Below, piece by piece: positions 61,191 to 64,000 of a DNA stretch of 64,000 nt. The DNA lies in NCBI RefSeq assembly GCF_000384315.1, contig NZ_ARVW01000001.1:1-64000 (forward strand). Reading direction: 5' to 3'. This DNA is from Amycolatopsis nigrescens CSC17Ta-90 (GTDB taxonomy: Bacteria > Actinomycetota > Actinomycetes > Mycobacteriales > Pseudonocardiaceae). The stretch's first letter is position 1, and the number at the start of each line of letters is the position of its first letter. Position numbers and translations under genes: made by a program. Below the pieces are notes generated by a model. It saw nothing but the letters and a program-made list of their open reading frames with translations. It did not search any database and was not told the DNA's origin.

Positions 61191-62030
61191 CTACTTAGGA
61201 TCAGCGCCGCGGGCGACCTCGCGGGTCGGGTCGGTGATCCAGTCGCTCCACGAGCCCACGTACAGTGCGGCGTCGAAACCGGCCAGCCGGAGCGCGAGCA
61301 CCTCGTGTGCCGCGGTCACGCCCGATCCGCAGTAGGCGGCCACTTCGGAGTCCGGCGTGATGCCCAGCCCGGCGAACCGCTCGCGCAGCTCCGGCACCGG
61401 GCGAAAGCGACCTTCGGCGTCGACGTTCTCCGCGGTGGGTGCGGAGACCGCGCCCGGAATGTGCCCGGCGACCGGGTCGATCGGCTCAACCTCGCCGCGG
61501 TAGCGCTCGGCGGCCCTGGCATCGAGCAGGATCCCGTTCCGCGCGAGTCCTGACACCTCGGCCGCGGTCACCATCGGCACCGCACCCGGCCGCACGGTGA
61601 AGTCGCCCGGTTCCACGGCCGGCTCGTCGCCGGTGGCCGAGGGGAAGCCCGCCCGCACCCATGCCTGGTAACCGCCGTCTAGCACCCGCACGTCGGGATG
61701 CCCGTGATAGCACAGCATCCACCACAGCCTGGCCGCGATCGTCGAGTCCCGGCGGTCGCAGACCACGACCGGCCGGTCATGGCGGACGCCCAGCCGGCGC
61801 AGGGTCTCGCCGAACGCGGCCGGATCCGGCAGCGGGTGCCGCCCGCCGTCACCGGGCGGCGCGGCCAGTTCCGTGTCGAGCTCGGCGTACCGCGCGCCGG
61901 GGATGTGCCCCTCCCGGAACTCGCTGATCCCCGGCGGCCCACCGGGCGTCCAGCGCACGTCGAGCACCACCGGCGGCGCCGTCCCGTCGATCGCCGCCCG
62001 CAAGCCCTCCACCGACACCAGCACACCCAT
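61191..62030 (-). CDS. Tandem rhodanese sulphurtransferase
   Basis: 279 residues, two rhodanese domains. The active site cysteine of the second domain is C234 in AAYCGSGVTA. The first domain is structural, though it has C92 in VVVCDRRDS. Probably thiosulphate or 3-mercaptopyruvate sulphurtransferase (SseA-like). ATG 62028-62030 with AGAGGG upstream. The ECH gene ends 23 bp away, convergent. Confidence 0.93.
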   Translation of the reverse strand: MGVLVSVEGLRAAIDGTAPPVVLDVRWTPGGPPGISEFREGHIPGARYAELDTELAAPPGDGGRHPLPDPAAFGETLRRLGVRHDRPVVVCDRRDSTIAARLWWMLCYHGHPDVRVLDGGYQAWVRAGFPSATGDEPAVEPGDFTVRPGAVPMVTAAEVSGLARNGILLDARAAERYRGEVEPIDPVAGHIPGAVSAPTAENVDAEGRFRPVPELRERFAGLGITPDSEVAAYCGSGVTAAHEVLALRLAGFDAALYVGSWSDWITDPTREVARGADPK

Positions 62031-62081
62031 GCGTTCCCTCTCGTTCTTCAGGCTGAAAAGGACAGTACACAATGGACTAAA

Positions 62082-62540
62082 TCAGCCAGCGGTCCGGCGC
62101 TGCCGTTTCGTCACCTGATGCAGGACGTCCTTGAACCGGCCGTAGCACTCCCGGCCCAGCGCGCGGGAGTGCCGCCGCTCGATGGCGCTCATGATCGAGT
62201 CGGCGGTCCTGATCTGGTCCAGCCCGCGCGCGGTCGGACACACCAGCTTGGCCCGCCGGTCCACGGGATCCGGATGCCGTTCCACGTAACCGAGGCGCTC
62301 CAGCTCGTCGATCACCGTGCCGACCACCTGCTTGTGCTGTCCGGAGAGCCTGGACAGCTCACTGGCCCTGATCCCGGCCCGGTCCAGATAGACCATGACC
62401 GCGCCGTGGCGGGGCTGGAGGTCGTCGAAGCCCTTGGCGGCCAGTGACCGGAACAGCTCGTTCTGCACCGAGAAAAGCAGGCGCCCGGCGAGCACGCCCA
62501 GGTTCGGGTCCGCGTCCACACGGTCGGCGCGAGTATTCAA
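62082..62540 (-). CDS. MarR family regulator
   Basis: 152 residues from the TTG at 62538-62540 (GGGAG 6 nt upstream); the longer frame to 62786 is not codon-like. Winged helix in ASELSRLSGQHKQVVGTVIDELERLGYVERHPDPVDRRAKLV (about 54-95). C-terminal helices end KRQRRTAG. Rhodanese gene lies 51 bp downstream on the same strand, possibly cotranscribed; it could also act on the upstream palindrome region. Confidence 0.87.
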   Translation of the reverse strand: MNTRADRVDADPNLGVLAGRLLFSVQNELFRSLAAKGFDDLQPRHGAVMVYLDRAGIRASELSRLSGQHKQVVGTVIDELERLGYVERHPDPVDRRAKLVCPTARGLDQIRTADSIMSAIERRHSRALGRECYGRFKDVLHQVTKRQRRTAG

Positions 62541-62550
62541 GACGGCTCCC

Positions 62551-62984: not shown

Positions 62985-63216
62985 GTTCCGGCTACTCCCG
63001 CAGAAGGCGGTTTTGCGGCTGCTTCGCGGATTCCGCGCCCGGTGAACATCGTTTTGCGTGACGACGAGGACACGGTGCGCTTCCCCCCGTGGCCCGACCA
63101 CCACCCCGGCCCAAAGGCGGGTGTTCCGCACACCTAGGCATGGGACCCTCGACCTAGCACGGTAGAGGAGTAGTTCTTACTGGGGTTGTCTAGCTATCTG
63201 GGGATGAGAGGCACCT

Positions 63217-64000
63217 ATGAGTGGTGTTGCATCGTGTTCGGGGGACTTACGCACGCTGACCACATCCACCTACCGCGGGGTCAACGACGGCGCGCTGGCC
63301 GAGCTGTGCTCGGCACTGTTCGCCTCGCTGCCCCGCAGCGACCAGCGCAAGAAGGGAATCGAGTACATCCGCGGCCTGCTGGAGACCAACGGCCGCAAAT
63401 CCATCCGGAACATCGCCGCCCTGCTCGGCGGGCAGGCCACCGAACAGAGCCTGCACCACTTCATCAGCAGCTCCACCTGGGACTGGGACCCGGTTCGCCG
63501 GGTGCTGGCGCACTACGTCGCGCGCAGCACGCAGCCGCAGGCATGGGTGGTGCGGCCGATGGTGATCCCGAAGGCCGGCCAGCACTCGGTCGGGGTCGAC
63601 AAGCGGTTCTTCTCCACCCTCGGCCAGGTGCGCAACGCGCAGCAGGCGGTCGGGGTCTGGGCCGCGTCGGACGAGGTGAGCTGCCCGGTGAACTGGCGGC
63701 TGCACCTGCCCAAGGCATGGCTGGACGACGCTCCCCGTCGCAGCCGCGCCTCGATCCCGGACGAGATGGGCGCCGAGACCCTCGGCGACTGCGCGCTCGA
63801 GGCCTACCTCGGGATGGCCGCGCGGACGGAGCTGCCGGTCCGCCCGGTGGTGATGGACGCCCGTGAGGCCGACGTGATGAAGACGGTCCGGAAGCTACGG
63901 GCCGCCGGGGTGCCGATGTTGCTGCGGGTCAGCAACACGCTCCGGCTCAAGGTGGCCGATCCCGCACTGCCGGGGCACAGCGCCGACGCCCTGCCCGCGG
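63217..64000 (+). CDS. IS701-like transposase relative, first catalytic Asp lost; 3' end outside the window
   Basis: 261 residues in the window, frame open at the end. ATG at 63217 with AGAGG upstream. RGLLETNGRKSIRNIAALLGG and SLHHFISSSTWDWDPVRRVL match the N-terminal region of IS701-type DDE transposases. Where active enzymes have V-V-D-E-T-G-F-x-K-K-G-x-H-S-x-G-V this protein reads VVRPMVIPKAGQHSVGV, so the first catalytic D is R. A second acidic D is kept in VVMDAREADVM. Codon use is like the host's. Probably a domesticated or regulatory relative. Preceded by a 676-bp palindrome-rich gap. Confidence 0.8.
   Translation, partial: MSGVASCSGDLRTLTTSTYRGVNDGALAELCSALFASLPRSDQRKKGIEYIRGLLETNGRKSIRNIAALLGGQATEQSLHHFISSSTWDWDPVRRVLAHYVARSTQPQAWVVRPMVIPKAGQHSVGVDKRFFSTLGQVRNAQQAVGVWAASDEVSCPVNWRLHLPKAWLDDAPRRSRASIPDEMGAETLGDCALEAYLGMAARTELPVRPVVMDAREADVMKTVRKLRAAGVPMLLRVSNTLRLKVADPALPGHSADALPA

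Follow-up and report, generated by a model that had tools for sequence, protein, structure and literature searches.

A conserved clade of catalytically dead IS701-type transposases beside diazotisation-type biosynthetic clusters, with a putative role in regulation under a PucR partner

The first 64,000 nucleotides of contig NZ_ARVW01000001.1 of Amycolatopsis nigrescens CSC17Ta-90 (hereafter the window, meaning this whole stretch) end inside a gene for an IS701-type transposase that has lost two of its three catalytic acidic residues. The gene lies on the plus strand (63217..64000 in the window, and on to 64437 beyond it). We are almost certain that it represents a conserved dead clade kept under selection, and not one decayed copy of an insertion sequence. 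We also think it probable that the protein has been domesticated as a cluster-situated DNA-binding regulator of nitrite-diazotisation and chorismate/3-hydroxyanthranilate-type gene clusters, under the control of a PucR-type protein.

A dead catalytic site shared by a clade

The open reading frame starts with an ATG at 63217, runs without closure to the end of the window, and stops at 64438-64440 in the chromosome. Read past position 64000, it encodes 407 amino acids without internal stops, and the uninterrupted frame reported in a preliminary description of the window thus extends to the whole gene. The protein matches the NCBIfam model of IS701 transposases (NF033540) with 333 bits, well over the cut-off of 150, as well as the Pfam domain DDE_5. 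The K-x-G-x-H-S-x-G-V motif noted earlier is present as K119-A-G-Q-H-S-V-G-V. A sequence search of the PDB with the 407 residues returned nothing at E <= 1. The predicted fold is that of a whole Tn5-type transposase, with an N-terminal domain and an RNase H core in one chain. In this model, the helical N-terminal domain (codons 27-105, 63295..63531, plus strand) matches the DNA-binding region of Tn5 transposase, as judged from fold matches and conservation.

Catalytic positions were read by alignment to relatives with an intact D-D-T or D-E-T. Instead of the intact triad of an IS701 transposase, the protein has R113, D214, and A372. Codons 113-115 (63553..63561, plus strand) read R-P-M where D-D/E-T is expected, and the first site is lost. 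Codon 214 (63856..63858, plus strand) retains the second aspartate, and codon 372 (64330-64332, plus strand, outside the window) encodes alanine in place of the third residue, glutamate. The preliminary description had equated R-P-M with the catalytic D-E-T. It was right that the first site is changed, but R-P-M spans only the surroundings of the first aspartate and not the three catalytic residues. The third acidic residue, which it proposed to look for beyond position 64000, is gone too.

The changed first site is conserved in homologues. We searched 5.8 billion proteins, scored 7995 candidates, and obtained 863 matches, of which the best 120, including the window protein, were examined. Position 113 is R in 102 of these, Q in 15, H in 2, and S in 1, and never D; position 214 is D in all 120; position 372 is A in 74, T in 34, S in 9, and V in 3, and never E. 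We also compared 81 loci, namely our own and the best 80 of at least 502 relatives, a set that leans to close relatives, with flanks no longer than 10 kb and, on several contigs, shorter ones. The GC-based gene caller missed the gene in three of them (L069, L088, L090), hence counts on the gene itself refer to 78 loci (our own and 77 from named genomes). There, position 113 is R in 64, Q in 12, and H in 2; position 214 is D in 77 and N in 1; and position 372 is A in 29, V in 18, T in 16, S in 13, E in 1, and I in 1. Homologues at 54-69% identity have the dead site in common and full-length frames. The ratio of nonsynonymous to synonymous substitution rates (dN/dS) ranges from 0.05 to 0.42 in 16 hand-picked close pairs, well below 1 in every one. 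On these data we reject a decaying insertion sequence.

A quick tree of 97 rows splits a clade of 88 from four D-D-T rows with an SH-aLRT support of 100, although the tool warned of long branches meeting at this point. The relatives that keep the first aspartate are a distant outgroup only. The clade includes six tandem paralogues with other first-site letters, and two rows (L059, L074) that have H in this place and retain the glutamate. Forms with a changed first site and a kept glutamate are placed between the clade and the D-D-T rows; the second copy in our own genome is among them. The tandem paralogues, found in L050, L061, L062, L079, L086, and L089 (at about 8.0-9.8 kb in each locus), directly or nearly adjoin the gene. 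They are 33-42% identical to the window protein, have S-S-L, R-P-T, L-P-L, G-S-T, or G-A-T at the first site, and have alanine at the third.

Many soil actinobacteria have the gene in intact form. Its distribution is uneven: with a threshold of E <= 1e-60, it was found in 79 of 246 genomes of one genus (probably Streptomyces), in 16 of 296 genomes of the class, and in 41 of 346 of the family of A. nigrescens, the last two counts including its own genome. Among 100 relatives, only two others reach at least 50% identity. Matches occur in 463 plasmid records, the best rows being 43% identical.

We found no convincing marks of mobility. The genome has one full copy, and the next is 42% identical over part of its length. 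A search for terminal inverted repeats in 2301 bases around the gene gave 22 inverted pairs, of which only two enclose the reading frame (16 nt at 88% and 14 nt at 93%); in both, the right arm falls inside the following gene and the pairing was judged to be chance, and very short or poor repeats could escape such a search. For lack of convincing bounding repeats and of close copies, we reject a mobile element. The second IS701-like gene of the genome (8799154-8800170, outside the window; locus L034) has A-E-E at the first site and keeps the aspartate and the glutamate. In relatives from the same genus, this site reads T-E-A, A-E-A, or R-D-A; partly dead forms thus occur too.

Domestication, as proposed in the preliminary description, is well supported because the changed first site is conserved, the neighbours described below are recurrent, and the observations that were to refute it (bounding repeats with near-identical copies, or homologues with the aspartate intact) were not made beyond the distant outgroup.

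Recurrent biosynthetic neighbours

Neighbouring genes were counted by tblastn, with one query each. The check for fixed neighbours yielded recurrent genes across the 81 loci: PucR in 50, class II DAHP synthase in 32, isochorismatase in 31, a dehydrogenase in 23, a quinone reductase in 20, a CreM-like protein in 16, SRPBCC in 15, CreE in 6, and CreD in 5. Grouped, this makes 50 loci with PucR, 40 with chorismate genes, and 7 with CreD or CreE. At one locus of the same family (L150), DAHP synthase, CreD, CreE, CreM, SRPBCC, quinone reductase, the dead-transposase gene, and PucR all lie inside 15 kb. In A. xylanica, the order is isochorismatase, dehydrogenase, DAHP synthase, dead-transposase gene, and CreE. 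In the 246 genomes of the genus that is probably Streptomyces, 79 have the gene, 67 have a nitrosuccinate lyase over the cut-off, and 30 have both. The two lie at most 40 kb apart in 15 of these 30, where random placement would give 0.53 near pairs.

A conserved upstream site linked to PucR

The preliminary description placed a promoter-rich region before the gene, which is borne out in one part: a conserved 20-bp site, GGTGTTCCGCACACCTAGGC, lies at 63120..63139 (plus strand), 97 bases before the start codon, and is a putative operator of the GAF-PucR protein. Its motif, GGTG-N8-CACCTnGGC, was found in 45 of 69 deduplicated upstream regions (out of 78) with a log-likelihood of 331, against 61-63 in three shuffled sets (single-base shuffling, with 60 starts versus 250 for the real set). 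Some of the 45 matches are oddly placed and probably false (L050, L059, L078, L082). With the site model, fitted on loci from named genomes, 53 matches score above 13 within 300 bases before the gene, and 11 do so elsewhere in 1.5 Mb.

The presence of the site follows that of a PucR gene. When PucR is counted anywhere in the locus, 47 of the 78 loci have both, 23 neither, 5 the site only, and 3 PucR only. Among the five site-only loci, two have weak sites (L059, L078), two are on stretches that end soon after the gene (L103, L106), and the last is L087. When only an adjacent convergent PucR is counted, the corresponding numbers are 42, 21, 7, and 3, with 5 of 78 not scorable; PucR is three or more genes away in L076 (where the site score is borderline), L092, L097, L098, and L112. 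Thirty short loci of the same family gave 5 with both, 7 with the site only, 3 with PucR only, and 15 with neither. Twenty were extended: six site-only loci (all but A. xylanica) and 14 others without a site over the threshold. All six extended site-only loci (L150-L155) have a PucR gene, 4.9-9.0 kb away, upstream or downstream. L151 and L153 already belonged to the named set; L151, whose site scores 13.0, just under the numerical cut-off, is tallied in the extended comparison as PucR without site. In A. xylanica (L119), a sequence resembling the site lies far upstream, and the stretch contains no PucR. Of the 22 stretches in this extended comparison, seven are judged to repeat records of the named set (L151, L153, L156, L158, L159, L160, L119).

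A looser version of the pattern precedes the gene in 49 of 78 loci (2.4 expected) and, with 0.8 expected, occurs in the promoters of 9 of 18 divergent PucR genes. Most likely, the site is one for PucR, given their co-occurrence, distant PucR genes included, and the looser pattern in divergent PucR promoters. In the stretches examined, the gene targeted most often would then be that of the dead transposase. Autoregulation by the dead transposase is disfavoured, as 23 of 78 loci have the gene with neither site nor PucR in the stretch. We also searched for motifs upstream of ten neighbour families, two of them too small (PhzE with 5 sequences and CreM with 6). Several searches gave patterns resembling ribosome-binding sites, coding frames, or promoters, and the useful outcome was the divergent site between PucR and methyltransferase.

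At the home locus, the PucR-type regulator with GAF domains, assigned by domain match, lies on the minus strand at 64511-66520, convergent to the dead-transposase gene. Between the two stops, an inverted repeat with perfect 15-nt arms and a loop of 17 nt (64447-64493, outside the window) is probably a terminator common to both genes.

Proposed role and alternatives

In the role that we favour, the GAF domains of PucR would sense a signal, and PucR would act at 63120-63139, as their co-occurrence suggests. This control would drive the production of the dead transposase, whose N-terminal domain, judging from fold and residues, would bind promoters of the cluster without cutting them because the metal site is gone. 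Transcription of the cluster would thereby be raised or lowered. Of the earlier proposal of a domesticated DNA-binding regulator, the domestication part stands, while the regulator part is suggested by the predicted fold, the neighbours, and the conserved upstream site. A broader reading, on which we are evenly divided, is that the whole clade was domesticated as pathway regulators of diazo/3-hydroxyanthranilate-type clusters, wired under GAF-PucR by the conserved operator, and is a family of transposase-derived transcription factors that go by the name IS701 family transposase in databases.

Several observations weigh against regulation of the clusters. Within the flanks of at most 10 kb, 12 of the 81 loci have none of the three marker groups (PucR, chorismate, CreD/CreE). 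The gene and the nitrosuccinate lyase are far apart in 7 of 22 genomes that have both on one contig and on different contigs in 8 more, and 49 of the 79 gene-bearing genomes have no such lyase over the cut-off. PucR occurs without the site in L060, L075, L080, L127, L149, L006, L165, L166, and L121, and the site pattern is absent from the divergent PucR promoter of our own locus. The loci are related, and a tree-based sign test of the association between site and PucR could not reach significance with the few independent pairs available. Finally, the searches upstream of ten neighbour families gave no target motif for the dead transposase itself.

The protein could also bind DNA without regulating transcription and shield the producer, for example by covering DNA that is exposed to nitrous acid or to diazo products or by assisting in its repair, and be carried and controlled with the cluster for this reason. 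The tight linkage of part of the loci to nitrite and diazotisation genes and the Tn5-like fold with a DNA-binding domain would fit such a function. However, 35 of 81 loci have chorismate genes but no CreD or CreE in the stretch, so nitrite is not the only link, and we noticed neither a domain nor a partner of a repair type; we regard this explanation as unlikely. We give still less credence to two others. The inhibitor protein of Tn5 acts as a dominant negative on transposition, and the dead protein might likewise guard the cluster or the genome against active IS701 elements. Yet such an inhibitor would not be expected to have recurrent biosynthetic neighbours or a PucR-linked site, and the genome of A. 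nigrescens shows no intact close IS701 partner: even the nearest copy (42% identity) has a changed first site. Equally improbable is another enzymatic activity on nucleic acid through D214 and other residues: all 120 sequences and 77 of 78 loci retain this aspartate, but the first aspartate and the glutamate are lost together (to R or Q and to small residues), leaving no two-metal site of a known type. A functionless decaying copy, which the lost catalytic site alone might suggest, has practically no credibility, being already contradicted by the shared dead site, the purifying dN/dS values, and the conserved upstream site.

If the proteins are regulators, their genes are markers of silent clusters that make reactive nitrogen compounds and may help to activate them; they would also be an instance from bacteria of a transposase that became a regulator. 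Regulation can be tested directly through the partner gene and the 20-bp site.

Relation to known systems

The protein resembles IS701 family transposases (NF033540, DDE_5) in sequence family, full length, and, in the model, Tn5-type fold. It differs from them in lacking the first aspartate and the glutamate, convincing terminal repeats, and a close second copy in the genome. Tn5 transposase is catalytically active, and the Tn5 inhibitor lacks the N-terminal part. Both have a fold like that of the model (PDB 1mus and 1b7e, respectively), and the N-terminal domain is matched in the transposase. The identity to Tn5 is only 13%, and the match to the inhibitor starts at model residue 89. Most of the domesticated transposases known are eukaryotic. 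The plant proteins ALP1 and ALP2 are reportedly domesticated transposases that act as regulators. The likeness lies in a transposase gene kept by its host without transposition; the plant proteins are eukaryotic and of other superfamilies, and their role is said to have been tested, whereas that of the IS701-type protein is deduced.

The homologous genes bear the label transposase in public records and are easily set aside in cluster analyses because of it. In the penzonemycin cluster, Table 3 of PMC9323291 describes pzm10 as a 432-aa transposase between the DAHP synthase pzm9 and the nitrosuccinate lyase pzm11, and gives it no role. These surroundings resemble the order in A. xylanica (DAHP synthase, dead-transposase gene, CreE), and pzm10 may belong to the dead clade, going by its table description and position. 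A search of open-licence papers returned no described function for the clade. The available portion of PMC11705231, a review on the enzymology of N-N bonds, has no such gene and does not contain the word transposase, the main text of the crx paper (PMC11429834), as far as available, has no such gene and no word with "transpos", and the accessible part of the cma paper (PMC10777205), cluster table included, has none either. Hence, a bacterial dead-transposase clade tied to diazo-type clusters and a PucR partner appears to be undescribed in the literature searched.

The home locus and further observations

Chromosome numbering, used for the neighbours, is identical to that of the window. Beyond PucR follow a methyltransferase (66603-67424, plus strand), a nitrosuccinate lyase (67601-69010, minus), a CreE-like flavoprotein (69007-71796, minus), an AMP-binding enzyme (72164-73744, minus), an SRPBCC protein of 180 aa (73796-74338, minus), a quinone reductase (74453-75529, plus), an asparagine-synthase-like protein (75517-77382, plus), and a KamA-like radical SAM protein (77379-78752, minus). 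The lyase, which an aspartate-nitrosuccinate cluster should have, scores 797 bits with NF052556 (cut-off 650), and its best PDB match is CreD (E 2.6e-174). The CreE-like protein has an FAD-NAD(P)-binding domain, no matching NCBIfam model, and a PDB match to 8cp2 ("FAD-binding protein", E 3e-202); since this match starts at residue 283, the called start is probably too early. The lyase next door suggests a CreE-type aspartate N-hydroxylase activity. The AMP-binding enzyme scores 91 bits with the CreM/AvaA6-type diazotase model NF058622, far under the cut-off of 975. Judging by its lyase and gene content, the cluster bordered by the dead-transposase gene would be of the aspartate-nitrosuccinate (nitrite-forming, diazotisation) type and resembles those of cremeomycin and penzonemycin. 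None of the chorismate-pathway genes of our query set was found within 18 kb.

Just upstream of the gene, domain matches identify a two-domain rhodanese (61194-62072, minus strand) and a MarR-type regulator (62085-62543, minus strand). A longer open reading frame overlapping the MarR gene has no counterpart in other loci at the thresholds applied, and therefore the cluster edge probably lies between the MarR gene and the dead-transposase gene.

A palindrome, GATCTGACAGATC, in the quinone reductase promoter region of four loci (L044, L051, L067, L077) is possibly the site of another regulator. Lastly, the chromosome has a second gyrase pair at 83002-88885 (minus strand, outside the window), with gyrB and a gyrA-like gene that contains intein and LAGLIDADG domains. 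It adjoins an AMP-binding gene resembling a nonribosomal peptide synthetase (78978-82979). The main gyrA lies elsewhere, at 3468117 (1196 bits versus 611); the second pair could be a self-resistance copy of the target of the cluster.
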